64,000 nucleotides of DNA. Origin: Deltaproteobacteria bacterium. Lineage in GTDB: Bacteria; Myxococcota_A; UBA796; SXON01. The DNA is taken from positions 62,001 to 126,000 of the forward strand of contig CANFCK010000006.1 of the NCBI GenBank assembly GCA_947445035.1, written 5' to 3'. The notes beneath the pieces were generated by a model. The model saw only the letters and a program-made list of their open reading frames with translations, did no database searches and was not told the DNA's origin. The first letter of the stretch is position 1. Each line of letters starts with the position of its first letter. Below, in pieces: positions 6,056-22,265 of this stretch. A program made the translations under genes and the position numbers.

Positions 6056-6789
6056 CAGAAGTCCCCCGCCACCACGAGGTAGCCCGGACCGACAGAGATC
6101 ACGCCGCCGTCACCGAAAAGCGCCAGTCCCAGACCGGCGCCCAGTCCGACCACGCCGACCCCCAAGAGCACATCGGCCGCCAGCGCGCTGCCCGACTCCT
6201 CTGCGAGCGCGGTGGAGACGCTCTCGCCGCAGCGGAGCGCGCCGCCAGTGTCCGTGGCACACCCGGCGGCGGCGTTGTCGTGTGCGCCGAGCGCGATCCC
6301 GCCGAGGACCGCGCTGGCCCCCAACGACACGACGCCGACCCCCGCGAGGCCCAGCGGCAGCGGCCGAAAGAAAGGGGAGGGGCTGGCGGCCGAAGGAACG
6401 GTTGGGGCCGTGCGCACCTCGTCCGGTCGCGCGGAGTCCGGCGCCGGCGTCCCGGGCTTGGTCTCGGCGATTCGCCGCTCAAGGTTGGTGATGCGTCGGT
6501 CAAGGGTCGCCCGTTCGTCGGCCGGCGCGTAAGCGCGGTACCGCGACAGCACGTCGAGCGCCTCGCCCCAGCGCCCCGTCCGCTCCAGCGCGTTGGCGAT
6601 GTTGAACAGGAGCGCGGGCCGGGCGGAGAGGCGGTAGGCCTCTTCGAACGCGACGACAGCGTCCTCGTAGCGCCCCTCCTCGTAAAGAATCGCGCCGCTT
6701 TGGTACAGTTCCCTGGCGCGCACGTCTTCGCTTTCCCCAGCCTGCGCCATGGACAAGAGCGCGACAAGGAGCGTGCTCACGGCGACCAA
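6055..6789 (-). CDS. TPR protein with C-terminal membrane segments
   Basis: 244 residues with a signal peptide ending AQA. TPR-like helices span about residues 22-110 (ELYQSGAILYEEGRYEDAVVA). A Pro/Ala/Thr-rich linker follows, and then two hydrophobic Gly-rich segments (about 145-170 and 205-235) that could cross the membrane. This layout is common beside PEGA-domain Ser/Thr kinases in myxobacteria. It overlaps the kinase gene by 13 bases. It is probably an envelope scaffold protein in the same pathway; the exact role is unknown. Confidence 0.82.
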   Translation of the reverse strand: MVAVSTLLVALLSMAQAGESEDVRARELYQSGAILYEEGRYEDAVVAFEEAYRLSARPALLFNIANALERTGRWGEALDVLSRYRAYAPADERATLDRRITNLERRIAETKPGTPAPDSARPDEVRTAPTVPSAASPSPFFRPLPLGLAGVGVVSLGASAVLGGIALGAHDNAAAGCATDTGGALRCGESVSTALAEESGSALAADVLLGVGVVGLGAGLGLALFGDGGVISVGPGYLVVAGDF

Positions 6790-8318
6790 GGGTCCTTCAG
6801 GTCTCCGCTTGTGCGGGGCTTGGTTGGGGTCGGCACCTCGGCAGCGTCGACGGGCTCCGGCGCCTCCTCAGGCTCGGAGGGCAGAGCGCCGCTGACGCGC
6901 GTCCCGGTCGACCGGGCCTGTGCGCGTGCGGGGCTGGGCCGCAGCACCACCTGCTGGCGCCGGGCATCCCAGGGAATCCTGACGGTCGCCGGCACATGCC
7001 CATCGGCCTGCACGCTCAACTCCCACACTTCGCCTTCGGGGATGGCCACGTCGAGCGGCGCAACGCCAAGCGCGACGCCCCCCCGCCCGAGGCGGGCACC
7101 GTCTGGAAGACTGGTGACCCGCACCGGACCGGCAGGCGCGGTAGGGGCGGCCAGCGTGGGCGTCGCCACCACGACTGTGGGGCCCACCAAACGCTGCTTC
7201 CACCACCACGCGCCCAAGGCCAACGTCAAGACCAGGGCCCCGACAACGGCCATTCCGGCGAACGCCCCGGTCGCCGCGAGCAGCGGTCCTCGCCGGCTGC
7301 GGATGGCCGAGATGAGGGTCGATCCGCTGGGCTCCGTCGGCCCGGCGCCGCGTACGGGGCGGGATGCGCGCCCCGAATCCCGGACAATTCGCCCAGCCGA
7401 CAATTTGGATGGCCCCGAGGACTCGCCCCGCAGCTCCGCCTCGCAGATCCGCAGCGCGCGAATGACCTCGTCGATGTCGGCGAATCGGTCATCGGCCCTC
7501 TTGGCGAGGCAGGTGAGAATCACCCATTGCAGGCTCGGGCTTTCCAAAAGTGCGGGGGTCTTCTGGTCCAGAGCCGGGGGATCGTGATTGAGGTGGGCGA
7601 GCAGCACGCCGACCGAAGTGTCAGCCACAAACGGAGGTTTACCAGCGACGCACGCGTAGAGAATCACGCCCAGTGAGTAGATGTCGGTGCGGGCATCCAG
7701 CCGCTCGGCGCGGATCTGTTCGGGCGACATGAACGACGGGGAGCCGACAACGGCGTCCACCCCGGTCAGCTCATCGTCGGTGCGAAGCTGTTTGACCAGC
7801 CCGAAGTCAAGCACCTTTACGAAGTCCTCGTCGTCCCCGTGGCGCATGAGCACCACGTTGGCGGGCTTCAGGTCGCGGTGGATGAGACTCAGCGAATGGG
7901 CCTCTCGCAGCGAGGCACACATCTGCCGGGCGAGGTTTACCACCCGAGCGGCAGACAGCGGAGCCTCGGCCTGGATGACCTGGTGGAGCGTGCGCCCATC
8001 CAGGTACTCCATCGCGATGTACAGCAGCTCGTCGCCCACCGCGCCGTGATCGAACACGCGCACCGTGTTGGGATGCGTCAGCCGCGCGCTCACGGAAGCT
8101 TCGAGTTGGAACCGGCGGCGGAACTCCGCTTCCTGGTCTTCGTCGCCGGAGACGGCCAGCACCTTCAGCGCCACGGTCCGTCCCAGCGGGTGCTGTTCGG
8201 CGCGGTAAACGCGGCTCATGCCCCCGCGGGCCAGCGACGAAACCACCCGGTACCGCCCGTCGATGGTCCGCCCGATGAGCGGGTCACGATCAGGCTGGGA
8301 GGCAGGATTGTGAATCAT
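6777..8318 (-). CDS. Transmembrane Ser/Thr protein kinase with PEGA domain
   Basis: 513 residues. The Hanks-type kinase domain covers about 20-295, with a glycine loop (LARGGMSRVYRA), ATP-binding Lys52, catalytic HRDLKPAN at 147-154 and DFG at 171-173. A Pro/Arg-rich juxtamembrane stretch follows, then one transmembrane helix near 350-375, and then an extracytoplasmic PEGA-like beta domain (SLPDGARLGRGGVALGVAPLDV). It heads a seven-gene overlapping operon of exported proteins, so it probably couples an envelope signal to cytoplasmic phosphorylation. The FHA-ABC fusion at the window start is a candidate partner, because FHA domains bind phosphothreonine; that link is inference. Confidence 0.95.
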   Translation of the reverse strand: MIHNPASQPDRDPLIGRTIDGRYRVVSSLARGGMSRVYRAEQHPLGRTVALKVLAVSGDEDQEAEFRRRFQLEASVSARLTHPNTVRVFDHGAVGDELLYIAMEYLDGRTLHQVIQAEAPLSAARVVNLARQMCASLREAHSLSLIHRDLKPANVVLMRHGDDEDFVKVLDFGLVKQLRTDDELTGVDAVVGSPSFMSPEQIRAERLDARTDIYSLGVILYACVAGKPPFVADTSVGVLLAHLNHDPPALDQKTPALLESPSLQWVILTCLAKRADDRFADIDEVIRALRICEAELRGESSGPSKLSAGRIVRDSGRASRPVRGAGPTEPSGSTLISAIRSRRGPLLAATGAFAGMAVVGALVLTLALGAWWWKQRLVGPTVVVATPTLAAPTAPAGPVRVTSLPDGARLGRGGVALGVAPLDVAIPEGEVWELSVQADGHVPATVRIPWDARRQQVVLRPSPARAQARSTGTRVSGALPSEPEEAPEPVDAAEVPTPTKPRTSGDLKDPWSP

Positions 8319-8448: not shown

Positions 8449-8477
8449 TTTACTTTTGGGCGCCTCACTCGTATAAT
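8449..8477 (+). promoter_or_regulatory. Sigma-70-like promoter for the bcs operon
   Basis: TTTACT (8449-8454), a 17-base spacer, then a perfect TATAAT (8472-8477). In such GC-rich DNA this is a conspicuous match. Transcription would begin near 8484, which rules out the furthest-upstream TTG (8477) as the bcsA start. The rest of the divergent gap (8319-8448) shows nothing else I can support. Confidence 0.5.
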
Positions 8478-8497
8478 TGCGTACCCAGAACGCGTCG

Positions 8498-10642
8498 TTG
8501 AACGAAAATAAGCTCGGCTCCCCTGTGGAGTCGCCCTTCGCGGCGACCATCGATCGCCTCATGCGTGAGGCCGTGGCGTCGCCCGTTTTGCTGGCTGCGT
8601 GCGTGGTCTTCTCGCTGCTGCCGGCCTGTATCTTTGCCTTCGCGGAGCTGCCGCTGCGTTCGCATGCCATCATCTCCGCAGTGGTAATGGCGGTTTCGGT
8701 GTGGACGCTGCGGCGCCTGCCGAACTGGCGGCTCGCGGTCGCGCTTTTGAGCGTCTGCATGTCGGTGAGGTACGTCGTGTGGCGAGGTCTCGCGACGCTC
8801 GCGCTCGACAATCCCGCCGACGCCGTGCTGAGCATCCTGTTGTACGGTGCCGAGATCTACGGCGTAGGCGTGCTGATCCTGGGGTACTTCCAGACCTCCA
8901 TCATGCAGCCGCGGGTGCCTGTGGCCCTCCCTCCGGACGAGACGCTTCCGAGCGTGGACGTCTACATCCCGACCTATAACGAAGGGGTGGAGATCGTTCG
9001 GCGCACGATCATCGGCGCGCGGGCGATCGACTGGCCGCGCAAGATGGTGTACGTGCTCGACGACGGTCGGCGCCCGGAGATGAAGGCCCTCGCGGCCGAG
9101 CTGGGGGTCGAATACCTCACCCGCAGCGACAACCGCCACGCCAAAGCCGGGAACATCAACGCGGCGCTGAGGGTCACCACCGGCGAGTACATCGCGATCT
9201 TCGACTGCGACCACGTGCCGGTTCGGAGCTTCTTGCGCCTCACGATGGGCTTTTTGCTTCGCGACCCGCGCTGCGGCCTGGTCCAGACCCCCCATCACTT
9301 CTACAACCCCGACCCCTTCGAGCGAAACCTGTGGTTGGAGGACATCGTTCCCCCGGAACAGGAGATGTTCTACCACGCGGTACAGATCGGGAACGACTTC
9401 TGGAATTCCGCCTTCTTCTGCGGCAGCTGCGCGGTGCTCCGCCGTACCGCGATCGAGAGCGTCGGCGGCATCGCGGTGGAGACCGTCACCGAGGACGCCC
9501 ACACGGCGCTTCGGCTCCATGCGGAAGGGTGGCGGTCCGCGTATCTGGACATTCCGCAAGCGGCGGGACTTGCGACGGAACGGTACGCGTTCCATGTTGC
9601 CCAACGCATGCGGTGGGCGCGCGGGATGACGCAGATCCTCCGTCTCGACAATCCACTTTTCAAGCGGGGTCTCACCTGGGCGCAGCGGCTCAACTACCTC
9701 AACGCCATCCAGCACTTCCAGTTCGGCATCCCGCGGATGGTCTACCTGACCGCGCCGACGCTCTTCTTGCTCTTCGGCATCCACCCCCTGCGCGCGAACC
9801 CCTGGGAAGTCATCGCGTACGGCATGCCCCACATCTTCTTGAGCCTCATCGGTGGCCTCGCCGTGGCCCGGTCGGTGCGACACGCCTTTTGGGCCGAGGT
9901 GTACGAAACCGCGCTGGCGCCGTACACGGCAGTGGTCACGACGATGGCGTTCATCGCCCCTCGGAGCGGCTCGTTCAACGTCACGGTCAAGGGCAGCCAG
10001 CTTGATCGGGCCTCGTACGACTTGCGGCACGCGGCGCCCAACCTGCTTCTGCTGCTGATGTGCATCGCCGGACTCATCGTCACGCCAGCACGTTGGGAAA
10101 TGTATCCGGACGAGCGCGGGACGCTGCTGGTGACGGCGTTGTGGAATCTCTACAACGTGGCGATCCTGTCGGCCGCGGTGATGGTGGCGCTCGAACGCCC
10201 GCAGCGTCGGAAGACGTGGCGCGTGAAGCGGGAGCACCTGGTGCGGGTGACCGTGCCATCGCGGCCGGACCTCGGCGTGATGGTGGGCGAAACCATCGAC
10301 ATGAGTGAGGGCGGCATCCGGCTGCGCCTGCCCAGCTTCCCGCTCAATGCCACCGATGTCGTCGTCGATGTAGAGGGCAGCTTCTCGGCGCTTCGCGGGG
10401 CGTCGGGGCAGGTCGTCAAGCGCTTCCGCTCGCAGGGCGAGGCGGACTTGCGTGTTGAGTTCACGGCCCTCCCTCGTGAGGAAGAGGCCAAGGTGGTGGA
10501 GTTGATGTTCTCCGAGCCCGACTCGTGGACGCATCGCCCCCTCAGCCAGCACCCGTTTCAGTCGCTTTTGACCGTGGTCTACGCGCCCTGGCGCGCGCTG
10601 GTTTTGAGCCTGCGTGACGACGAACGGCAGGCCGACGCATGA
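8498..10642 (+). CDS. bcsA: Cellulose synthase catalytic subunit with PilZ domain
   Basis: About 714 residues. It polymerises UDP-glucose into beta-1,4-glucan and threads it across the inner membrane. Numbered from the TTG at 8498, GT2 motifs are DDG (188-190), DCD (236-238), FFCGS, TED (331-333) and QRMRW (369-373). Transmembrane helices flank the GT domain. The C-terminal PilZ domain keeps both c-di-GMP motifs, RKTWR (571-575) and D-x-S-x2-G (601-606), so activation by c-di-GMP is expected. The start is uncertain: TTG 8498, GTG 8525 or ATG 8561 all lie downstream of the promoter and none has a clear ribosome site. It is the first gene of the bcs operon and overlaps the next gene as ATGA. 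Confidence 0.95.
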   Translation: MNENKLGSPVESPFAATIDRLMREAVASPVLLAACVVFSLLPACIFAFAELPLRSHAIISAVVMAVSVWTLRRLPNWRLAVALLSVCMSVRYVVWRGLATLALDNPADAVLSILLYGAEIYGVGVLILGYFQTSIMQPRVPVALPPDETLPSVDVYIPTYNEGVEIVRRTIIGARAIDWPRKMVYVLDDGRRPEMKALAAELGVEYLTRSDNRHAKAGNINAALRVTTGEYIAIFDCDHVPVRSFLRLTMGFLLRDPRCGLVQTPHHFYNPDPFERNLWLEDIVPPEQEMFYHAVQIGNDFWNSAFFCGSCAVLRRTAIESVGGIAVETVTEDAHTALRLHAEGWRSAYLDIPQAAGLATERYAFHVAQRMRWARGMTQILRLDNPLFKRGLTWAQRLNYLNAIQHFQFGIPRMVYLTAPTLFLLFGIHPLRANPWEVIAYGMPHIFLSLIGGLAVARSVRHAFWAEVYETALAPYTAVVTTMAFIAPRSGSFNVTVKGSQLDRASYDLRHAAPNLLLLLMCIAGLIVTPARWEMYPDERGTLLVTALWNLYNVAILSAAVMVALERPQRRKTWRVKREHLVRVTVPSRPDLGVMVGETIDMSEGGIRLRLPSFPLNATDVVVDVEGSFSALRGASGQVVKRFRSQGEADLRVEFTALPREEEAKVVELMFSEPDSWTHRPLSQHPFQSLLTVVYAPWRALVLSLRDDERQADA

Positions 10643-11238
10643 ACACCGAGTGGGAATGTCCGCTTTGTCGGACCACCAACCTCGTGCCCGCGCCGATTTG
10701 CCGGGTGTGCCGTTGTGCGTGGCCGGGGATCCGGGCCCGCGGCGAAGACCGCCCCGACGACGAAGACGACCGCCCCAGCGTGCTCGAGTCCTTGCCCGCG
10801 CCGATGGCGCTGGTCGGTCTGGCGCTGGTGCTTTTCTTCTGGTGGGAACCGGTCACGAGGCCGTTTTCGGTCCCCTCTCAGCACAGCGGTTGGACCACGT
10901 CCGCTCACGTCGAGCGCTCAGACGAGCTCCGTCGCGCGCGCAACGATCTGGTGGGGCTCGCGGACGAAATGCGGGGGACCCTGGGGGAAGGCGGCGCCTT
11001 GACACCCGATTGGAACGACCGCCTTTCGTCGTGTCGCCAACATTGGCAGCTCTATGGGGAGCAGGACCGGGCGCCCCACCTCGCGGGTGTGGAGGTCAAG
11101 CTCCACTCCGCGGTGCTCGAACTCGCCTCGATTCGTTTCCAGCTCAGCTCGGGCGTCAGTCCCAGCGAGCTTTTTCAACGACTGGAATCCGTTTACGCCG
11201 CGCTGTCCCAAGCCGGCGAGGAGCTCAACAATGCGTAA
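10639..11238 (+). CDS. Zinc-ribbon membrane protein inside the bcs operon
   Basis: 199 residues. The N-terminus has CPLC (C7, C10) and CRVC (C21, C24), a likely zinc ribbon in the cytoplasm. An acidic linker follows, then one transmembrane helix (about 54-72, APMALVGLALVLFFWW). The remaining ~120 residues form a periplasmic helical domain. The gene overlaps bcsA as ATGA and bcsB by eight bases, so it is made together with the BcsA/BcsB pair. It matches no standard Bcs accessory protein I recognise (not BcsD, BcsE, BcsF, BcsG or BcsQ). Its topology would let it link the cytoplasmic PilZ/GT side to periplasmic BcsB; that is inference. Confidence 0.8.
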   Translation: MNTEWECPLCRTTNLVPAPICRVCRCAWPGIRARGEDRPDDEDDRPSVLESLPAPMALVGLALVLFFWWEPVTRPFSVPSQHSGWTTSAHVERSDELRRARNDLVGLADEMRGTLGEGGALTPDWNDRLSSCRQHWQLYGEQDRAPHLAGVEVKLHSAVLELASIRFQLSSGVSPSELFQRLESVYAALSQAGEELNNA

Positions 11239-13360
11239 CCTTCCCATCTGCCTGTCCCTGGTGCTCGGGCTCATGTCCACTGCCAACGCGGCTCCGGGCG
11301 AGTTCCCCGCCGCCTCTGGCGTGTACCAGGCGTCACTGGCCGACGAGTTCTTCCTCGGCGACGATCTTCGCCTGGACGGCGTGCACGCGACGCGCAGCAT
11401 CACCTTCACCCGGCCACGAGGGTGGACGCTCATCGCCGATCCGGTGGTCCACGTAGAATTCGAGCACTCGGCGGCGCTGATTCCGGACCGCTCCCACCTC
11501 ACCGTCTCGGTCAACGATCACCCGATCGGCACCATCACGCTGACGGCGGACAACGTGCTCTCGGGGCAGGCGGACATCCGCGTGCCGCGCGGCATGCTCG
11601 AGGACTACAACAAGCTCCAGTTCGACGTCGTTCAGCACTATACCGACGATTGTGAGGACCCCTTCGACGCGGCGTTGTGGACGCGCATCAAGACCAGCAC
11701 CTGGGTCGAGCTGGCCTACGTCCGCAAGCCGATCGAGGCTGAGCTTTTGCAGTGGCCCTACCCGTTGGTCGACAAGCTCGGGTACGGTCCGACCCTGGTG
11801 ACGCTGGTCACGCCCGGTGGACCCTCCCGCGACACCGTCGCAGCGCTGGGTACGGTCGGTTTCGCCCTCGGCCGGCTGGCCGACTACCGCGAGGTCGAGG
11901 CTGCGGATCCGGTCGCCTCCGCCGCCGCAGCATTGACGCCGGCGCTCATCATCGGCACGGCCGCTGAGATCCCCGAAGCGCTCGCGCTGACCGGAGTTTC
12001 GGAGCTGGCCGACGACCAGGGCCTCGTGGCGATGATTCCCAATCCCAGCGACCCGACCCTGCCGGTCATCGTCGTCACCGGTGGGGGCTCGGTCGGTCTG
12101 CAGCGAGCCGCGCAGGCCCTTGCGGGACAGGACCGCTACCAGGTGCTCTCCGGCTCGGTGTCCTTCGTCAACGCGTTGACCCCGGCCAACCCGCCGCCCA
12201 CCCGCCAGAACCCGCTCGCCGCTCCGCCGGCCTCGAAGTTCACCCTCGCTGACCTGGGCATCGCGGCGCAGACCGTCCGCGGCTACTACCCCGCCAGCAT
12301 CCGCGTGCCGTTGCGTTTGGAAGGGGATGCCCTCGCCCAGCCGGGCGGTGGCAGCATCCGGGTCGACTACGCCTACTCCGCGCAGCTCGACAGTCGGCTG
12401 TCGACGATGGAGGTCCGGCTCGGCGGGCTGACGCTCCGAAGCGTGCCTCTGGACAAGGTCTCCGGCGAGGCGACGGCCTCGGTCTCGGTGCCCTTGCCTC
12501 AGGACCTCGTCGAGCCCGCGTCCAACATCGACATCGTGTTCCACCTTTTCCCTCGCGAGTTCGACGAGTGCGAGCGGGTCTCGGACAAGCAGCTGTGGGG
12601 AACGGTCTACGCAACGTCGACCATCGACATGGCCCGCGATCACGTCGCGGAGATGCCGGACCTGGGGCTTTTGCGGCACGGCATGTGGCCGTTGACTGCG
12701 CTGCCGGCCGGCGGCGGAACGGTGGTGGTGCTCCCCGACTCCCCGGACGGCCGCGCGGCCTCGGCGGGGCTCGTCATCGCCGCGCGACTCGGTCGGTTGA
12801 CGCACGCTCCCGCCCCCGACTTCACGCTCCTGCGGGCGGTGGACGTCGCCTTCGCGGACCGCCAGGACAAACACTTCATCCTGTTGGTCGATGCGACCGC
12901 CAATGCGCTGTACGACAGCCTCGCCGGCTCGGGCGGGTTGAGCCTCACCGGCGGCCCCGAGCGGTTGTTGGCCAATGGGAAGGATGTGCTCCTCAACGCC
13001 ACGGTCGGGTCACCCTACGGCACGATTGAGGAGACCTTCTCCCCCGCGAACGACCAGCGCGCGGTCTTGGTGCTTCGCGCGCTGCGGGAGGACGGGCTCG
13101 GCCCGTTGGTCGAGGCGGTCACCGACCTGGGCAAGGTCAAGAAGCTCGACGGAAACGTAGTCATCGTCTCTGCCGACGGAGAGTTCCGCTCGCTCGACGT
13201 CGCATCCAAGGCGCAATGGGGCTCGCTGACGGTCGCGACGGCCGCCACGCGCGAGATCAAGGACAACTGGTGGGTGCTCGCCGCCGTCGTCATCGGTGGC
13301 GTGTTCTTGCTCACCGCGTTCGTCAGGGTCTTCGCGCAGGCCCGCAGCAACCGCGACTAG
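11231..13360 (+). CDS. bcsB: Cellulose synthase periplasmic subunit BcsB
   Basis: 709 residues. The signal peptide is MRNLPICLSLVLGLMSTANA. The periplasmic body alternates jellyroll carbohydrate-binding and flavodoxin-like domains (FTRPRGWTLIADPVVHVEF, HPIGTITL). A single C-terminal transmembrane anchor (WWVLAAVVIGGVFLLTAFV) precedes a short basic tail; in known complexes this anchor is needed for BcsA activity. The ATG was chosen because it directly begins the signal peptide and overlaps the upstream gene by eight bases. BcsB guides the nascent glucan through the periplasm. Confidence 0.92.
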   Translation: MRNLPICLSLVLGLMSTANAAPGEFPAASGVYQASLADEFFLGDDLRLDGVHATRSITFTRPRGWTLIADPVVHVEFEHSAALIPDRSHLTVSVNDHPIGTITLTADNVLSGQADIRVPRGMLEDYNKLQFDVVQHYTDDCEDPFDAALWTRIKTSTWVELAYVRKPIEAELLQWPYPLVDKLGYGPTLVTLVTPGGPSRDTVAALGTVGFALGRLADYREVEAADPVASAAAALTPALIIGTAAEIPEALALTGVSELADDQGLVAMIPNPSDPTLPVIVVTGGGSVGLQRAAQALAGQDRYQVLSGSVSFVNALTPANPPPTRQNPLAAPPASKFTLADLGIAAQTVRGYYPASIRVPLRLEGDALAQPGGGSIRVDYAYSAQLDSRLSTMEVRLGGLTLRSVPLDKVSGEATASVSVPLPQDLVEPASNIDIVFHLFPREFDECERVSDKQLWGTVYATSTIDMARDHVAEMPDLGLLRHGMWPLTALPAGGGTVVVLPDSPDGRAASAGLVIAARLGRLTHAPAPDFTLLRAVDVAFADRQDKHFILLVDATANALYDSLAGSGGLSLTGGPERLLANGKDVLLNATVGSPYGTIEETFSPANDQRAVLVLRALREDGLGPLVEAVTDLGKVKKLDGNVVIVSADGEFRSLDVASKAQWGSLTVATAATREIKDNWWVLAAVVIGGVFLLTAFVRVFAQARSNRD

Positions 13361-13366
13361 CCGCCG

Positions 13367-14458
13367 GTGTCTGCCCTCGCCGCCGCATCCGCGCTCCTTT
13401 GGTTGTCCGTGCCCGCGCACGGTCGCGACGGGGCCGAGCTGCGCGCCGCCTGGGTCGACTACCAGAAGGTCTACCTCAGCGCCGACGGCCGGGTGATCGA
13501 CTTCCGTGAGAACGGGGTCACCACCTCGGAGGGGCAGGCCTACGCCATGGTCCGGGCCCTGTGGATGGGCGATCGGGCCACCTTCGACCGGGCGCATCGC
13601 TGGTCCGTCGCAAACCTCCAGGGGGGCGACGAGGGGCGGCTGGCGGCCTGGCGTTGGGGGCGTCGCGACGATGAATCGTATGCGGTCCTCGACGAGCAGC
13701 CCGCGTCTGACGCCGACCAGCTCATGATCTGGGCGCTTTTCGGGGCGGCCAGCCGGTGGAAATCACCCCGTTACGAGTCGATGGCGTTGGCGCTGCTCGA
13801 CCGACTCTGGGCCGAGGAAGTCACTGAGGTGGCGGGGAAGCTGGTCCTTTTGCCGGGGCCGTGGGCGCGGGGCGGGGTGCCACTCCGCGTCAACCCGTCG
13901 TACTTTTTGCCCTTCGCGTGGCGGGAGTTCGCCCGTCGCGACCGAACTCGCCCGTGGATGCGCCTTCTGGACGATGGCTACGAGCTGCTTGCGGCCTGCC
14001 GCAGCCCCAGTGGCCTTCACCAGGATTGGTGCTCTCTCGATCCGGTGACCGGAGCGGTCGTGCCCTCGGCCGAAGCCAAGGACGGCAGTTTCGGTTTCGA
14101 AGCCTTCCGGGTGGGGTGGACGCTGGCGGCCGAGGTGAAGTGGCACCACGAACGACGCGCCCGACGGCTCTTGGGCCCCTACGAAAACTTGCTGGCCCGC
14201 CCCGACGGTCCGGTGAAGATTCCCGGGATCATCGCCGCGGACGGGCGCGCCGCGGTGGACTGGGAATACCCCGGGATGTGGGGCGCCCTTTTGCCGGCGT
14301 GGAGCCTCCGGCGCCCGGCGGTCGCCAGTCGGGTGTGGGCGGAAAAGCTCGCGCCGCTGCGGGCAAGCCACGGCTGGGGGGACCCCAACGACTACTACGG
14401 ACAGAATTGGATCTGGTTCGGGCTCGCCCTATGGCAGAGTAAGGAGGGGCCGGTATGA
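13367..14458 (+). CDS. bcsZ: Endo-beta-1,4-glucanase, GH8, BcsZ
   Basis: 363 residues with a signal peptide ending AHG. It is a GH8 family cellulase that trims or releases glucan in the periplasm. The general-acid Glu is E55 in TTSEGQAYAM, and the DAD motif (D115-A-D117, in ASDADQLMIWAL) matches the GH8 substrate-binding and catalytic region. The GTG start lies six bases after the bcsB stop. Its end overlaps bcsC as ATGA. Length and order (bcsB-bcsZ-bcsC) are canonical. Confidence 0.93.
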   Translation: MSALAAASALLWLSVPAHGRDGAELRAAWVDYQKVYLSADGRVIDFRENGVTTSEGQAYAMVRALWMGDRATFDRAHRWSVANLQGGDEGRLAAWRWGRRDDESYAVLDEQPASDADQLMIWALFGAASRWKSPRYESMALALLDRLWAEEVTEVAGKLVLLPGPWARGGVPLRVNPSYFLPFAWREFARRDRTRPWMRLLDDGYELLAACRSPSGLHQDWCSLDPVTGAVVPSAEAKDGSFGFEAFRVGWTLAAEVKWHHERRARRLLGPYENLLARPDGPVKIPGIIAADGRAAVDWEYPGMWGALLPAWSLRRPAVASRVWAEKLAPLRASHGWGDPNDYYGQNWIWFGLALWQSKEGPV

Positions 14459-17400
14459 TTGTGCTGCTTGCCTCCTTTTGGATCGGTACGGTCGCGCTCG
14501 CGGCGCCGGGCCCCGAGATCGATGCGCTCGCGCACGCGCCGCTGTCGGGTTCCGCGCGGGTGGCGCTCGCCCAAAGCCTGCTGGGCCGGCCTGGGTGGGA
14601 AGAAGTCGGCATCGAGGCGCTTGTCCGCCTTTTGGACGACCCGGCGGTTTCGGGAAGGGCGCGGACGCTTCTGGTAGAGCTGATCGGCAAGACCGACGGC
14701 CGCCCGGGGTGGGCGGGGGTGTACGCCCGCCTGTTGGAGTCTCCGGAGTTTCCGGGTCGCAACCTGATCGTGCTCCGCCATGCCGAAGCGCGCCTCGGGG
14801 ACGCCAGCAGCATGCGAGCAGCGGTCGCCGAGCTGGACCGTCTGCTTCCGAGTGCCGACGCCGCGAGCGCGCGGGCGATGGGCCGGTCGCTGCTTCGGGC
14901 GGGTGAAGCCCGTCGTGCGCAAGCTGCATTCGAGCGTGTCGGCGCCGATGCATCCGCGCGTGAACTCGAGCTCCTGTCGGCCATCGCGGCGGGGGACATG
15001 GCCCGGGCCGGCGAACTGGCGCGGCTGGGCGTTCGGGCGCCCGGCGCGGAGGCCGCGATCGCGGACCCGACGCGGAGTCGTCGTGCCGAGGCGCTGTCCG
15101 CCGCGGGGTACGTGACGATGGCGCGATTGATCCTCGAGGGCGGCGCGGTCGGCGAGGTGGGTTTCCAACTTGCCCAAATCCAACGCCATCAGGGCCACTT
15201 GACCGAGGCGGTGGCTACCTTGTTGCAGCTTTGCCGGGCAAACCCGACTGACGATGCCGCTCGCCGCGAGCTGCTCGCGGTCTACATTCAGCGGCATCGG
15301 TATTTCGACGCGCGCAAGTTGTGCACCGAAACTGAGGTGCAGCTGGCCCTGAGTTTGGACCCCCGCGTGGCGGTCGAAGCTTGGCGTCGCGGCGCCCGCG
15401 CCAATCGACTGCAGTTGCTCGAAGAGGCCGGCCGGGCGGCGGCCGACGACCCGTACATTTCGCGGGAATTGGGCAAGGAGCTGCTGGAGCAGGGGGGGAA
15501 CGACGCGGCGGCGCTGCTTTTGATTGAGCGTGCGCTGGATATCGACCCGCTGGACGACGACGGACTCGGGCTGTCCAACATCCTCGGTCAGCGCACGGGG
15601 GGCGCGGCGAAGGCCGCGGGCCGGCAGCTTTCGGCCGCAGCGCTCGAGGTCAGCCCGGCTCGCCGGCACGCGCGGCTTGCGGCGGCGGCGGACCTCCTGG
15701 TCATGGACGCAGAGGCGCGGAAGCAGACGGGCGACGTAGAGGGGGCTTTGGACCCATATTTTACCGCGCTCTTGATGGACGACCCTGCTCCGTACGAGCT
15801 GCTGGGCGCCGGCGGGCTTTTGTGGCAAGCGCAATACCTTGACGGGGCGCTCGCGCTCTTCACCGAGGGCCAACGCCAGCGCCCGAAGCACGTCCCCGCC
15901 CTGCTCGGCAGGGTTCGCCTGCTCACCCAGTTGGGGCGTGACGACGAAGCCCTTGCGGTCTTGCTCGAATCGCGCTCGCGGGATCCGCAAGTGGCGCTCC
16001 TCCGCCGATTCGTCGAGAATGGCATCCGCTCCCGGGACGCCCGCGCCGCGCACAACGCCGGGGATCTGGAAACCGCGGTGGTCTTGTGGCGGGCGCTTGC
16101 GCGCGAAGTGCCGGACGAGCCGTACTTCCAACATGGTCTCGGGGACGCGCTGGCGGGGTTGGGCGCGTATGCCCAGGCGCTCGAACAGTACCAGGCCGCC
16201 GTAAAGGGGGACCCCAAGGATGCGTGGGCGGTGCTGGGTGGGGCCAACTGTTTGGTTGCCCTCCAAAAACCGGAGGACGCCAGAGCGTTGGTCGCGGACT
16301 TCTACCCTCGGGGGGTGGACCCCGTCGCCGACCACGAGATGCCGAAGGTCCTTGCTCGCGCGTGGCGCGGCACCGCGCTCCGCGAACAAGGCGCTGGCGC
16401 CGTGCTGGATGCGTTCGCCGCCTGGCGGCAAGCCCTGGAGCTTGACCCTGAGGTCTTCGCGATCTCGGGGCTCGCCGCGCTGTACCTCGAACGCGACCAG
16501 CCCGAGGTTGCGCTCGCCTTCGCGGACGAGGCGATCGGGATCGAGGCAGCGTTGGTCGAGCCCGTCGTCACCCGAGCGCGTTCGCTGGAGGTGATGGGTC
16601 GCTGGGACGAAGCGCGCGCGGCTGCCGAGCTGCTCCGCACCCCCACGGCGACGCCCCAGGCGCTCGCCACGCGGCGGGAGATCGTGCAGCGGATCGCGGT
16701 CCAGCAGTCTGAGTATCAGCGCCGAATCGGTGACACCGCCGGCGCGATCGTGCGCCTACGCGAAACGATCGCCGCTGAGGGTGACTCCGCCGACTTGTGG
16801 ACGGCTCTGGCCTCGGCCGCCCTCGACGGGCGTGATTGTGCGACGGCCGTCGACGGAGTTTCGCGGGCGCTCCAGAGCAACCCGAAAAGCCGCTGGTCGC
16901 TGGGCACGACCGTGCGCGCCGCGTCGGTGTGCAAGTCCGCAGAGGCGCTCCACCCCGTGCTTCAAGATGCCGATCGGCGGGCGGGCGGCGGCTTCGCCGC
17001 CGCCGAGCTCCGCTCCGCGGAGTTCGAGCTTTTGGTTCAGCGCGCGGAGGCGCTGCACGCCAGCGGCGACCTCCCCGAGGCGCGGGTTCCGATGCGCTTT
17101 GCGGACGACCTTGCCGGCCATCCGCCCGATGAGTGGGCGCGTCTGGGCGGGGCGTGGCTGGGGCTTGCTTCGCCGCGCGAGGCCGTCACCGCGTTTGCGC
17201 GTGCGCTCGCCGCCGACCCAGGCCATGTCCCGGCGATCATCGGCATGGCGGGCGCGCTGCGCGCCCAGGGGCGCCTGCCAGCCGCTGAGGAGCACCTCCA
17301 AGCGGCGTGGGACCGCACCCGGGATCCGCGCGTCGGCCTCCAGTTGGTGCAGACGATGCTCCAACGGGGGCGCCACCGGCCCGCCGCCGAAGCGCTGGAG

Positions 17401-18660
17401 CAGGTGCGCGGCTCAACCATTCCGGCGGAGCCGCTGCTCCCTGAGCCGATCCGGCCCGACCCGCTGCCGCGGCTTTTGCTCCCGTCGGGGCGCGTTCCCG
17501 GCCCTCGCACCTGGCCCCCCACGCCGCCCCGCGACGTGCAGCCGCGCTGGCTTGCAGAGGCGGTCGACGCGGTCGGTCTTGAGCTGGCCCGAGAGCGCGG
17601 TGTGCACGTCGTCGCCGGGGGCGGTGTCTTCCAGAAGCCCGGGGACTCGGGCGAGCAGGCCCTGAGCGGCTGGTACGTTCCGGTCGAGGTGATCTTCCCG
17701 CCGGTGGGTTTGGTGCGCCTGAGCCTGGACGCGGTGGTTTTGCAGCTGGACGACCGGGTCGATGAGGCGCTTGGCGTCGCACCCTCCCTCGGGATCGCCA
17801 CCCCGCCCTTCCGGCGATTCTTCGCCACGGCGCGTGTCGGCACCAGCCCGCTTGGATTTGCTCAGGTCAACCCCCTCTGGCACGGGCACGCCCGGTTCGG
17901 CGTGCTGCCGGCGGTGGCCGTTGGTCTTCAGACCGCCCGCACCCCGGTGTCAGATTCGCTTCTGTCCTGGGCGGGCAAGTCGGCGTCGGTCGGGGACGGC
18001 ACCGAGTTCTTCGGCTTTGTGAGCCAGCTCTGGGCGGGGGCCTACGCCAGCTGGACGCCGCGCAATTTGGATCTCGGCCTCTTCGTCAAGGGGGGCTACA
18101 CCGAGGGTTGGGGAATCGAGCCCAATCCGCTGGTAGAAGGCGTGGCGTGGGGGAGCGTCGGCCTGGGCTCGGAACGGGCGTCGCTCCGGGTCGGTGGTCA
18201 GCTCGTCGCCATCCACCACGAGCGTCAGGAGGACGGTTTCTCCATCGGGGAAGGGGGCTATTTCAGCCCGCCCGTCTTCGTCGCCGCGGTGGCCGAGCTG
18301 CGCGGGCGGGCGGACTTCGTCGGCAAGCGTGGGCGCATCTGCGCCACGGTGGCGGCGGGCCCCCAGTACATGGACGGCGAGGCCACGCCCTGGTTCGGCG
18401 AGGGCGTCTCCGGAACTGGGCGCGCCACGGCTGGCATCAGCTGGCGGCTTGGGCCGACCTGGGCGATCGGGGTAGACGGTCGGGTGCAGGGTTCTTTGTC
18501 CGAGGCCAACGGCCAGCCCAATGTGTGGCATCAAGAGGCCGGGCTGGCCCACCTCACCTGGGGCTTGATTCCCCAAGGTCCCGCGGCGCCGTCGCTGACC
18601 ACGCTCGCCTCGTCCGGAGCGGTGCTGCCTTCGACCGGGGACCTGTGTCGCGCGGAGTGA
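14455..18660 (+). CDS. bcsC: Cellulose export outer-membrane protein BcsC (TPR plus barrel)
   Basis: 1401 residues, longer than the ~1150 typical of enterobacterial BcsC. A short signal peptide (WIGTVALAA) is followed by about 1000 residues of TPR-like helical repeats, which in BcsC form a periplasmic scaffold. A proline-rich hinge near 990-1020 leads to the C-terminal BCSC barrel domain, about 350 residues rich in Gly and aromatics. The TPR region shows internal duplication of AEA-x-LLR or DEA-x-A-type helices, and extra repeats explain the added length. It overlaps bcsZ as ATGA and the next gene as TGATG. Confidence 0.9.
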   Translation: MIVLLASFWIGTVALAAPGPEIDALAHAPLSGSARVALAQSLLGRPGWEEVGIEALVRLLDDPAVSGRARTLLVELIGKTDGRPGWAGVYARLLESPEFPGRNLIVLRHAEARLGDASSMRAAVAELDRLLPSADAASARAMGRSLLRAGEARRAQAAFERVGADASARELELLSAIAAGDMARAGELARLGVRAPGAEAAIADPTRSRRAEALSAAGYVTMARLILEGGAVGEVGFQLAQIQRHQGHLTEAVATLLQLCRANPTDDAARRELLAVYIQRHRYFDARKLCTETEVQLALSLDPRVAVEAWRRGARANRLQLLEEAGRAAADDPYISRELGKELLEQGGNDAAALLLIERALDIDPLDDDGLGLSNILGQRTGGAAKAAGRQLSAAALEVSPARRHARLAAAADLLVMDAEARKQTGDVEGALDPYFTALLMDDPAPYELLGAGGLLWQAQYLDGALALFTEGQRQRPKHVPALLGRVRLLTQLGRDDEALAVLLESRSRDPQVALLRRFVENGIRSRDARAAHNAGDLETAVVLWRALAREVPDEPYFQHGLGDALAGLGAYAQALEQYQAAVKGDPKDAWAVLGGANCLVALQKPEDARALVADFYPRGVDPVADHEMPKVLARAWRGTALREQGAGAVLDAFAAWRQALELDPEVFAISGLAALYLERDQPEVALAFADEAIGIEAALVEPVVTRARSLEVMGRWDEARAAAELLRTPTATPQALATRREIVQRIAVQQSEYQRRIGDTAGAIVRLRETIAAEGDSADLWTALASAALDGRDCATAVDGVSRALQSNPKSRWSLGTTVRAASVCKSAEALHPVLQDADRRAGGGFAAAELRSAEFELLVQRAEALHASGDLPEARVPMRFADDLAGHPPDEWARLGGAWLGLASPREAVTAFARALAADPGHVPAIIGMAGALRAQGRLPAAEEHLQAAWDRTRDPRVGLQLVQTMLQRGRHRPAAEALEQVRGSTIPAEPLLPEPIRPDPLPRLLLPSGRVPGPRTWPPTPPRDVQPRWLAEAVDAVGLELARERGVHVVAGGGVFQKPGDSGEQALSGWYVPVEVIFPPVGLVRLSLDAVVLQLDDRVDEALGVAPSLGIATPPFRRFFATARVGTSPLGFAQVNPLWHGHARFGVLPAVAVGLQTARTPVSDSLLSWAGKSASVGDGTEFFGFVSQLWAGAYASWTPRNLDLGLFVKGGYTEGWGIEPNPLVEGVAWGSVGLGSERASLRVGGQLVAIHHERQEDGFSIGEGGYFSPPVFVAAVAELRGRADFVGKRGRICATVAAGPQYMDGEATPWFGEGVSGTGRATAGISWRLGPTWAIGVDGRVQGSLSEANGQPNVWHQEAGLAHLTWGLIPQGPAAPSLTTLASSGAVLPSTGDLCRAE

Positions 18661-19919
18661 TGCGGGTCGGTTCGGCACCGATGTGGGCGAGTGTTTTGCT
18701 CGCTGCGTGGGGTTGCGACACGCTGCCGGGGCCGGGCTCGCCCACGGGTCCAGCAGACGACGACGTATGGGACGATCGGTATGTCCCGGTGGTGCGGTTG
18801 ACCGTTGACGGCGACGACTGGGCGGACCAGCTCAACGCACTCATCCCGGTCGATTCTTGCGACGATCGCCTGTATCTTCAGGCCAGTCTCGTCTACGAGA
18901 ACCCTCGCACGGGCAAGTCGGAGACCTATGAGCGCGTAGGCCTCCGCTACCGGGGGCATTCGGCGCTCACCGAGGGGCAACGATGGGGCTTCAAGGTCTC
19001 GCTCAACGAGCTCGATCCCGCCCAGAACTTCCATGAGCTCCACAACATCAACCTGATGGGAACCGAAGGAGATTACTCACTTTTGCGTGAGCGCCTGGGC
19101 CAGTGGGTCATGCGGGGAGCCGGCGTGACCGCGCCCCGGGTTGGCCACGTCCAGGTGTACATCAACGACGAATTCCAAGGCGTGTTTCCCTTCCCCGAAG
19201 AAGCCGACGACGACCCCTTCCTCGACGCCCACTTTGCCGATGACAGCGGCGGCTTCTACAAGACGGAAGGGTACTGCGGGGGGACGGCCGACTTCGAGGA
19301 CAAGGGGGACGATCCCGACCGGTACGACGCCAAGTACGCCCCCAAGGCCGACACCACCCTCGAGCAGCTGGCCGCCGACATCATCCCGCTGGTCAAGTGT
19401 GCCAATGAAGATGACGCGGGGCTATTGGAGTGCCTGCCCGCCCATGCAAACGTACCGCAGTGGCTGACCGAGATCGCCGTGGACATGGTGCTTCCCGACG
19501 TCGACGGCTTCGCCGGGGCCGGACAGAACTTCTTGTTCTACGACGATCCCGCGACGGGGACCTTCGTGGTGATCCCCTGGGACAAGGACCAGTCCTTCTC
19601 GATGACCAATGCGGAGTCGGCGAGCATCTGGGACCTGCATCCGCCCTGGGGGTCGTCGCCCGAGCTTACCCAGCGGGTGCGCGTGCTCTGGAAGGACGAC
19701 TACTGCGCCGAGGTGCTGCGCGTCGCTGAGATCGCGTCGCCATCGGCCTTGCGGGAAGAGCTGGCTCGAGTGCAGGGATACCTGACCGAGCCGATGTCCC
19801 GCGACCCCTGGTACGCTGAGACCGGAACCAGCTGGTCGGAAGGCGTCGGCGCGGTGTCGTCAGCGCTCGACGCCCGGCACGACGCCGTCGTGGCCGAAGC
19901 CACGGCGTGCGCACCCTGA
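18660..19919 (+). CDS. CotH-family lipoprotein coupled to the bcs operon
   Basis: 419 residues. The ATG overlaps the bcsC stop as TGATG, so it is probably co-translated. The lipobox AAWGC puts Cys at 19. The body resembles CotH-type atypical kinases: LRYRGHSALTEGQRWGFKVS near the start, NLMGTEGDYSLLRERLGQW, YINDEFQGVFPFPEEADDD, KTEGYCGG, and WDKDQSF towards the end, where the family has its metal-binding Asp. CotH kinases phosphorylate extracellular proteins in sporulating bacteria. A secreted CotH-like protein tied to cellulose export could modify a matrix or Bcs protein; this is inference. Catalytic competence in the periplasm, where ATP is scarce, is unproven. Confidence 0.83.
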   Translation: MRVGSAPMWASVLLAAWGCDTLPGPGSPTGPADDDVWDDRYVPVVRLTVDGDDWADQLNALIPVDSCDDRLYLQASLVYENPRTGKSETYERVGLRYRGHSALTEGQRWGFKVSLNELDPAQNFHELHNINLMGTEGDYSLLRERLGQWVMRGAGVTAPRVGHVQVYINDEFQGVFPFPEEADDDPFLDAHFADDSGGFYKTEGYCGGTADFEDKGDDPDRYDAKYAPKADTTLEQLAADIIPLVKCANEDDAGLLECLPAHANVPQWLTEIAVDMVLPDVDGFAGAGQNFLFYDDPATGTFVVIPWDKDQSFSMTNAESASIWDLHPPWGSSPELTQRVRVLWKDDYCAEVLRVAEIASPSALREELARVQGYLTEPMSRDPWYAETGTSWSEGVGAVSSALDARHDAVVAEATACAP

Positions 19920-19948
19920 ACCGGCACTGTTGCTGAGGAGTTGCCTTC

Positions 19949-20695
19949 TTGTCACCGAACGGTGCTTACAATGGGGACGTGCAAACTCCTGGCTCGATTC
20001 TGGTGGTGGATGACGAAGAGGACCTCCGCAACCTGCTGAAGCACTCGCTTGGCAAGGAGGGGTTCACGGTGCGGACCGTTGCGAGCGGCCCCGAGGCGCT
20101 CGCGGTGGCGCCAACCATGCGTCCGTCGCTCATCCTTCTCGACCTTATGTTGCCGGGGATGCAGGGCACGGAGGTGTGCCGACGCCTGCGCGCCGAGGCC
20201 TCCCTGACGGGCACCCCGATCATCATGCTGACGGCCCGTGGCGAAGAGCTCGACCGCGTCGTCGGCTTCGAGCTTGGCGCGGACGACTACGTCACCAAGC
20301 CCTTTTCCACGCGCGAGCTGGTCTTGCGGATTCGCGCGGTACTGCGTCGCGGCGATGGCGGCTCAGCCACGGAGGTCGACGGTACCCTGCGGGTCGGCGC
20401 GCTCCGCATCGACGCTTCCGCGCACCGGCTCTGGGTGGACGACGTGGAGGTGCAGCTCACCGCGACCGAGTTCCGCCTTTTGACCACGCTGGCACGGCGC
20501 AGCGGCCGGGTACAGACGCGGGGGCAGCTTCTGCAAGAAGTCTGGGACATGCCGCCCGACCTCAGCACGCGCACCGTCGATACCCACATGAAGCGCCTCC
20601 GGGAAAAGCTCGGGCCCGCCGGGGACAGGCTCGAGACCGTCCGGGGCGTCGGCTACCGGCTCAACGCGCTGGCGGCTGCGGCGGCAAAGGCGTAG
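19949..20695 (+). CDS. OmpR/PhoB-family response regulator
   Basis: 248 residues. The receiver domain has the acidic pair D21/D22, phosphoacceptor D65 (LILLDLMLPG), T95 and K117 (ADDYVTKPFS). A C-terminal winged-helix DNA-binding domain follows (about 145-240, ending VRGVGYRLN). The TTG start has GAGGAG eight bases upstream; a GTG at 19979 is a weaker alternative. No histidine kinase gene is adjacent, so it is an orphan regulator. Its position after the bcs/CotH genes makes them possible targets. Its 3' end overlaps the convergent rhomboid gene by 35 bases. Confidence 0.93.
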   Translation: MSPNGAYNGDVQTPGSILVVDDEEDLRNLLKHSLGKEGFTVRTVASGPEALAVAPTMRPSLILLDLMLPGMQGTEVCRRLRAEASLTGTPIIMLTARGEELDRVVGFELGADDYVTKPFSTRELVLRIRAVLRRGDGGSATEVDGTLRVGALRIDASAHRLWVDDVEVQLTATEFRLLTTLARRSGRVQTRGQLLQEVWDMPPDLSTRTVDTHMKRLREKLGPAGDRLETVRGVGYRLNALAAAAAKA

Positions 20696-22265
20696 GCAAA
20701 CCGAGCTCGTCGCTAGCCAGGGCCACGGCGCGCAGAATGGCCGAGTCCGTCGGCCACTCTGTCAGCGCCTGCGTCATCGCGGGCTCGGCATCGGGATGGC
20801 GAAGCGCCGCGAGCACCCGCAGCTCTGCGATCGCGACCTCGCGGGCGTTTCCGGAGGCGCGTGCTTCGGCGAACCCCGGCCGGCTCTCCTCCACCTGGCC
20901 CAATGCGGCGCGCGCCACCGCGGCCTGTAGCCTCGACTTCCACCACCGCGAGCCCTCCCCCAAGAGGTCGTCCTCCAGGTCGTTTGGCACGGTGAGCACG
21001 AGTCCGTCGAGGACGCGTTTCCGGAGAAGCGGACCCATCGGCGTGCCCACGACCATGTCGACGCCCGCGGCGGTGACGTAAAGCCCGCGCACGTGGACCT
21101 GCAGCGCCAGCTGCCGGTCGGTGCCGTCCACGGTGTAGTGGAAAACCGCCTCGTTGTCGCCAACGGGCGTCATGGTCGCGGCGGGGTCGACCCGTCGCAC
21201 GTCCAGCAGCTCCTCTTCGAAGACCTCGGTCGGCGTTGCCGGCGCCGCCCGGCGCTCGGTGTCGAGGGCCACCGTGGTCGATCGGTCGGGGTTGCCGTAC
21301 CCGGACAGGCCGCTGCGCCCCACCTGGACGCTCCACCACGACGGGCGCTGGGCCGTGGCGCCGTCCGCCTCCCAGGCTGTCCAAGGCAGGAGCACGGGGC
21401 CGAGGACGACGGAAAAACAAAGGAGAACGGCGGTGAAAACGGAGAGCGCCCACGTCGTGCCGAGGTTCCAGTGGCGCCATCCAGGGACGTCGGCCCGGAG
21501 CACAGCGCCCATCGTCAGGCCGCTGCCGAAACCGCCGAGGTGGCACCAGTTGTCGACGCCCTGCGACTCGGTGCCGGTGTAGAGCGCGTAGAGGACAAAG
21601 GGCAGCGTCGTGCCGCCGAAGACGGCGCGAGAGCCGGCCGGGATCGAGTCGCGGTATCGCACCCCGAGGACGGCGCTGGCCCCGAGCATTCCGAAGACGC
21701 CGCCGGAGATGCCGACGCTCGGGACCTCGGCGAGGAAGAGGCCGCTGGCCGCCCCCCCGACCGCCGTGGAGACCACGAGGATCACGAGCGTGGCGCGGGG
21801 ACCGACGAGGCGCTCCAGGCCCAACCCCGCCAGCAGGAGTCCCGCTCCGTTGCTGAGCAGGTGTCCGAAGCCGCTGTGGAGCAGGCCATACGTCAAGAGC
21901 CGCCACCACTCGCCGCGCTCGAGGATGCCGCTGGATTCGCGCGTCATGGCCTCCAAGACCCAGATGGTGTCGGCGCGGTAGAGGGCAAGGCTCACGACGT
22001 GGATTTGCAGGAGCAGCCCAAGCGTGCACGCGGTCACCCACGGCACCTGCGACCGGCGCCAGATGCGAAAAAGCTCCGCCCGCGGCGAAGCGACGAGCGC
22101 CGGCCAAGCTGGCCACTCCGACGCGCGTCGCCACCGGCCCTCCACTTGCAGTGGCATCTCGCCGAGCACGTCGCCGGTGACGATGGCTTCCTCCAGCTCA
22201 TCGACGGTGATGCGCCGCTCACCATCCGCACGCTGGACCCGCAGGAGCACGGGGCCCCATATCAT
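20661..22265 (-). CDS. Rhomboid intramembrane protease with extra N- and C-terminal domains
   Basis: About 534 residues. The first ~60 residues (VDELEEAIVTGDVLGEMPLQ) look like a small GYF/DUF4339-type module. A rhomboid core follows with H-x4-H-x3-N (HSGFGHLLSN, H130-N139), nucleophile Ser177 in GISGGVFGMLGA, and catalytic His222 in NWCHLGGFGSG. The last ~230 residues are soluble and probably helical; I recognise no family. I used the ATG twelve codons inside the longest frame because it starts the conserved module. Rhomboids cleave transmembrane segments of membrane proteins; the substrate is unknown. Confidence 0.9.
   Translation of the reverse strand: MIWGPVLLRVQRADGERRITVDELEEAIVTGDVLGEMPLQVEGRWRRASEWPAWPALVASPRAELFRIWRRSQVPWVTACTLGLLLQIHVVSLALYRADTIWVLEAMTRESSGILERGEWWRLLTYGLLHSGFGHLLSNGAGLLLAGLGLERLVGPRATLVILVVSTAVGGAASGLFLAEVPSVGISGGVFGMLGASAVLGVRYRDSIPAGSRAVFGGTTLPFVLYALYTGTESQGVDNWCHLGGFGSGLTMGAVLRADVPGWRHWNLGTTWALSVFTAVLLCFSVVLGPVLLPWTAWEADGATAQRPSWWSVQVGRSGLSGYGNPDRSTTVALDTERRAAPATPTEVFEEELLDVRRVDPAATMTPVGDNEAVFHYTVDGTDRQLALQVHVRGLYVTAAGVDMVVGTPMGPLLRKRVLDGLVLTVPNDLEDDLLGEGSRWWKSRLQAAVARAALGQVEESRPGFAEARASGNAREVAIAELRVLAALRHPDAEPAMTQALTEWPTDSAILRAVALASDELGLPTPLPPQPPAR

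Follow-up and report, generated by a model that had tools for sequence, protein, structure and literature searches.

Known CotH Proteins and Cellulose Synthase Operons

The CotH protein of Bacillus subtilis phosphorylates CotB and CotG, and some uncultured bacteria have large numbers of atypical secreted kinases of the CotH and Fam20 type; to our knowledge, the substrates of such bacterial kinases outside spores are largely unknown. According to the available excerpts of the respective reports, CotH keeps counterparts of D166, N171 and D184 of PKA and holds the adenine between Tyr142 and Trp245 (PMC12189002), and the D228Q and D251A variants of B. subtilis CotH are catalytically inactive (PMC7821199). 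In streptococci, clostridia and bifidobacteria, CotH genes are contiguous with an exopolysaccharide synthase operon, and regulation by phosphorylation has been suggested for these loci (PMC7112168, excerpt), while a CotH domain also occurs in Sfz6, part of a stalk locus of Zetaproteobacteria (PMC8250860, excerpt). A CotH protein beside a polysaccharide synthase therefore has precedent.

Here we describe a CotH-like gene that is coupled to a cellulose synthase operon. It resembles the pel-adjacent genes in its contiguity with a synthase operon but differs in its partners, which are a polyphosphate polymerase, a DUF4956 protein and Pel in the described loci (PMC7112168, excerpt) and cellulose synthase in ours. 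A link to polyphosphate was considered and discarded: the sole VTC-family gene found in the genome lies on contig C13, for which no CotH gene is listed, so that the genome yielded no counterpart of the cassette in which pel loci combine CotH with a polyphosphate polymerase. The titles and abstract beginnings listed for open-licence papers on CotH and cellulose contain no report of a bcs operon with CotH, of its coupling to bcsC or of the exchange of CotH clades described below.

Organization of the Cellulose Operon

The window, a stretch of 64,000 nucleotides from a deltaproteobacterial contig (CANFCK010000006.1), carries on its forward strand an operon with the core genes and gene order of BcsABZC cellulose synthase operons, to which it adds an open reading frame that we call orf200 and the coupled cotH-like gene. 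By Pfam, bcsA (8477-10642) encodes a GT2 synthase with a PilZ domain; it is followed by orf200 (10639-11238), by bcsB (about 11231-13360, the start being placed by eye inside a longer ORF at 11054-13360), by bcsZ for a GH8 endoglucanase (13367-14458) and by bcsC (14455-18660), whose product of 1401 aa combines TPR repeats with the outer-membrane C-terminal domain (BCSC_C, E = 6e-16). The cotH-like gene (18660-19919) encodes a predicted lipoprotein of 419 aa whose candidate lipobox cysteine is at position 19. An initial annotation made from the letters alone had proposed a cellulose operon and a translational coupling of cotH to bcsC. Both proposals are borne out, the former by the Pfam assignments of BcsA, BcsB, BcsZ and BcsC upstream of cotH, the latter by a TGATG overlap (18658-18662) in which the TGA of bcsC (18658-18660) shares a base with the ATG of cotH (18660-18662).

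The same annotation had also made cotH the last member of the operon, which has to be revised. A gene for an OmpR-type response regulator (19949-20695) lies directly downstream on the same strand, 29 bases after the cotH stop, and a scan of 18300-21200, which includes the gap between the two genes, revealed no terminator-like site, so that the operon probably continues past cotH, with the regulator on the same transcript. Within the genus, a response regulator lies downstream of the CotH gene or genes in eight of the nine operons whose bcsC end is covered; it is missing after CotH in genome G008 and is found about 0.6 kb further on in G010 (genomes compared are numbered with G, the focal one being G000, and loci with L). 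Divergent from bcsA, the minus-strand ORF at 6777-8318 reads by eye as a eukaryotic-type Ser/Thr protein kinase.

The product of orf200 gave no significant Pfam match. It has a Cys-rich ribbon, one hydrophobic segment and a helical-looking C-terminal part, and is probably an unnamed BcsA-associated subunit. In many operons of the order, the space between bcsA and bcsB is occupied by this gene or a similar one, and in others it appears to be fused to the C-terminus of BcsA (sites of one or the other kind are 10639-11238 of the window, 12339-15212 of L054, 10572-13277 of L056 and the gaps between bcsA and bcsB in L111, L116, L118, L119, L121, L122, L142, L146 and L148). The idea that orf200 marks CotH-bearing operons was dropped, because the gap between bcsA and bcsB is also filled in operons without CotH, by diverged ribbon/TM proteins or by BcsA fusions.

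Fold and Active-Site Residues of the CotH-Like Protein

The designation of 18660-19919 as CotH-like is confirmed at the level of family and of predicted fold. The ORF matches PF08757 (CotH) with E = 1.3e-28 and a score of 100.9 bits, where the cut-off is 23.8, over profile positions 1-311 of 322, and the nearest solved chain is 5jd9, the CotH of B. cereus (E = 7.6e-7). An AlphaFold2 model built on a 15-row orthologue alignment (mean pLDDT 85.9, pTM 0.85; confidence is low for residues 1-29) was compared with the PDB by Foldseek, which ranked the two B. cereus CotH entries 5jd9 and 5jda first (E = 6.4e-18 and 9.7e-18; TMq 0.69 and TMt 0.80 for 5jd9), followed by the CtkA and HipT kinases at E of about 3e-3. 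The protein resembles Bacillus CotH in fold over most of its length; it differs in sequence (18-19% identity), in being a predicted lipoprotein of a Gram-negative bacterium, in three extra residues between D282 and N290 and in its bcs operon context.

In the alignment to 5jd9, D282 pairs with the catalytic Asp of the DGF motif and N290 with the Asn after it, W307 and D308 pair with the Trp (Trp245) and metal-binding Asp of the PWD motif, and Y200 with Tyr142. This alignment and one of 57 CotH rows show that D282, N290, W307, D308, D310 and K112 are kept in the focal protein, in agreement with the kinase type that had been proposed for it. The inactivating B. subtilis positions D228 and D251 were mapped onto the B. 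cereus and focal proteins via the B. cereus chain, in which the two Asp residues are equally spaced (23, versus 26 in the focal CotH), the B. subtilis sequence itself standing outside the alignment. By this spacing-based mapping the kinase residues of the focal CotH, a putative enzyme, are retained. The cotH genes of G000 and G007 gave a dN/dS of 0.085, a rough value from our own script of the Nei-Gojobori type with G002 left out of the comparison, and selection on this pair is therefore purifying.

Conservation of CotH Downstream of bcsC

The focal CotH has matches in 47 of 58 genomes searched, mostly paralogues; its orthologues, 41-89% identical in the 15-row alignment, are found in the family of the focal genome and in two more families of its order. 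We compared 18 orthologue loci and two sets of 20 BcsB loci each, the first from relatives and the second drawn from the phylum (BcsB matches were obtained in 51 of 377 genomes), marking bcs genes by tblastn and CotH genes by a home-built profile. A CotH gene lies directly downstream of bcsC in 12 of the 17 bcs operons of the family with a covered bcsC end, a count that is drawn from related genomes rather than independent ones and excludes G001 and G015, whose contigs end before or inside bcsC. These comprise all nine covered operons of the genus (G000, G002 and G004-G010), two of three in a second genus (G011 and G018) and one of the three operons of G019. No CotH follows bcsC in G012, G013 and G016. 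The position is taken in G016 by a carbonic anhydrase and in G012 by a GGDEF protein (L113, 5175-6209, minus strand), and CotH is therefore dispensable there in the wider family. None of ten covered bcsC ends from other families (G038, G051, G027, G049, G024, G201, G319, G316, G145 and G221) is followed by CotH; the truncated G043 locus, G031 and the remaining loci with BcsB only, which show no bcsC end, are outside this count.

The junctions between bcsC and CotH are tight in all 12 coupled operons. The TGATG overlap recurs in G007 and G004 in addition to G000, the sole nearby start codon of CotH in G005 overlaps bcsC by 16 bases, and the probable start of the other eight CotH genes follows the bcsC stop at a distance of 4 to 8 bases, so that the coupling first noted in the window extends to its relatives. 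In another family, members of the focal orthologue clade stand upstream of bcsA instead, directly so in G039 and with an opposing arylsulfotransferase gene in between in G046 (PF05935; L054, 10412-12430, minus strand).

One may ask whether a member of an expanded CotH family simply landed after bcsC and has been inherited there with no role in cellulose export. The focal genome has 25 PF08757 matches, corresponding to about 23 genes, in 5.27 Mb, and all but one of the 21 relatives in its family have at least ten matches (10 to at least 31 per genome; the exception, G014, has none), which makes a location beside bcs genes less improbable than it would be for a single-copy gene. Several operons of the family have no CotH, and unlinked orthologues exist. 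However, with an assumed gene number, CotH genes would account for very roughly 0.5% of neighbours, as against 12 of 17 after bcsC, which is more than chance; all 12 junctions are tight, one clade has been exchanged for another in the same position, a separate placement beside bcsA is found in another genus, and selection is purifying. We consider mere inheritance unlikely. The gene is a real, lineage-restricted accessory of the bcs operon, its family, fold, active-site residues, position after bcsC and purifying selection all being computed properties, and the coupling together with the presence of CotH at the same position in most close relatives makes a real role in cellulose export likely. 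Against such a role stands the observation that ten of the focal clade's 19 members are found apart from bcs genes in the loci compared.

Two CotH Clades at the Same Position

A tree of 57 CotH rows was built from stop-to-stop ORF envelopes, which added out-of-frame residues from upstream to the focal row, and columns filled in less than 30% of the rows were dropped. It separates the CotH proteins found after bcsC into two clades, whose rows are relatives and not independent events. The clade that we call CotH1 comprises eight rows from three genera (G004, G006, G008, G009, G010, G011, G018 and G019; support 100/99), all linked to bcsC. The focal clade, CotH2, comprises 19 rows (support 100/100), seven of them downstream of bcsC, two upstream of bcsA and ten elsewhere in the loci fetched. 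Both clades follow bcsC in tandem in G008, G009 and G010; CotH2 is alone there in G002, G005, G007 and the focal genome, which has no CotH1 at this position, and CotH1 is alone in the five genomes G004, G006, G011, G018 and G019. The simplest history would be a tandem of CotH1 and CotH2 in the ancestor of the genus, followed by differential loss.

The two clades differ in the active site. All 19 rows of CotH2, from three families, have D282, N290, D308, D310 and K112, and W307 is present in 17, with Tyr in the other two. D282, N290, D310 and K112 are also kept in all eight CotH1 rows, but the metal-binding D308 is replaced by Gly in every one, giving a WGPD motif in place of WDxD (with Thr for the Trp in G011). 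By analogy with the inactive D251A variant of B. subtilis (PMC7821199, excerpt), CotH1 is predicted to be impaired in catalysis. The Gly is conserved and does not look like random decay, which points to an inactive partner or to another chemistry.

Since five genomes have only CotH1 at this position, phosphotransfer, itself putative, may not be the function shared by its occupants; the position looks as if it were selected for a lipoprotein of the CotH fold. One could accordingly regard the protein as non-catalytic throughout, a module for binding or scaffolding BcsC or the glucan, in which the kinase residues of the focal clade would be leftovers or serve another reaction. The absence of the metal Asp in all eight CotH1 proteins, which keep D282, N290 and D310 and five of which are the only CotH after bcsC, speaks for it, yet a pure scaffold would not need the D282, N290, D308 and D310 that all 19 members of the focal clade have kept. 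We regard a purely structural role as rather doubtful, if still a serious contender. The alternation of CotH2 with a CotH1 that lacks the metal Asp makes binding and partner recognition, with catalysis added in the focal clade, the likeliest shared function, and the exchange of the two types in one position is a natural experiment on whether catalysis or binding matters.

Putative Signal Peptides

A hydrophobic stretch followed by Cys is found in all 12 CotH proteins coupled to bcsC. The focal lipobox, LLAAWGC, has Trp at -2, which the PROSITE lipobox rule would not accept, and is plausible rather than textbook. In G000 the Cys is directly followed by Asp, which is an inner-membrane signal in E. 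coli. Lipoprotein sorting in M. xanthus follows rules that differ from those of E. coli (PMC3222651, excerpt).

Only about 6-10 residues separate the lipobox Cys of CotH1 proteins from the nearest start codon (seen in L043, L044, L045, L107, L109, L110, L112 and L114), and in G008-G010 the TAG of bcsC is immediately followed by CotH1 in the same reading frame. The short start may reflect an ultra-short signal or an unusual start. As a habit of the whole genome, ultra-short lipoprotein signals gained no support from a crude pattern count, which gave two cases with Cys among 562 candidate starts versus one to three with control residues.

Possible Role in Cellulose Export

The reading we tentatively prefer is that the focal CotH, a protein of the atypical protein-kinase fold, is co-produced with BcsC, exported as a lipoprotein and used in this lineage as a specific accessory to the export of cellulose. 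Translational coupling would let BcsC and CotH be made in step, both would then be exported, and CotH would be lipid-anchored and work near BcsC, at what we infer to be the periplasmic or outer-membrane face. In the focal clade it might transfer phosphate from a nucleotide to a protein in the export apparatus or the matrix, much as B. subtilis CotH acts on CotB and CotG, and this is probably the likeliest single activity. A CotH protein locked to bcsC would tie a secreted atypical kinase to a concrete process, cellulose export. The weak points of a kinase function are the occurrence of CotH1 without the metal Asp at the same position and the source of ATP outside the cytoplasm; we know of no ATP pool in the periplasm or at the cell surface.

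The same points weigh against the exported cellulose itself as the phosphorylated substrate. Fam20B phosphorylates a xylose. Available excerpts count a sugar kinase among the Fam20 kinases (PMC5865150), describe the modification of E. coli cellulose to phosphoethanolamine cellulose (PMC11379886) and place CotH genes beside Pel polysaccharide loci (PMC7112168), all of which would fit a glucan kinase, but with no known ATP source and with the clade lacking the metal Asp in the same position, we judge it improbable.

Neighbouring CotH Genes with Unlike Active Sites

The tandem of CotH1 and CotH2 in G008-G010 recalls the secretory kinase Fam20C and its paralogue with an altered active site, the pseudokinase Fam20A (PMC4421793 and PMC5413348, excerpts); those proteins belong to an animal secretory pathway, and the likeness is one of analogy only. 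Extending this analogy, CotH1 and CotH2 might form an extracytoplasmic module of a kinase and an altered kinase, descended from an ancestral tandem and modifying BcsC or cellulose, with the CotH proteins of these bacteria generally pairing by unlike active sites; we hold this combined proposal to be distinctly unlikely. Unlike types were found in 19 of 20 pairs of CotH genes up to about 3 kb apart, a proportion that is a lead and not a test, because many pairs are orthologous, some loci were picked for holding two CotH genes and the classes, sorted by eye, were drawn after looking. With that qualification, it suggests that CotH proteins may form hetero-pairs of unlike active sites. The metal Asp is present in one member and absent from the other in 14 pairs (L043-L047, L050, L051, L073, L163, L164, L166, L167 and two in L049, a four-gene cluster in which both same-strand pairs were counted and whose inner two genes would be of like type if paired across). 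Asn290 distinguishes five more (L168, L169, L170, L171 and the G000 pair in L061), and the single pair of like type is in L165. Some of the neighbouring pairs are in tandem, others are convergent or divergent.
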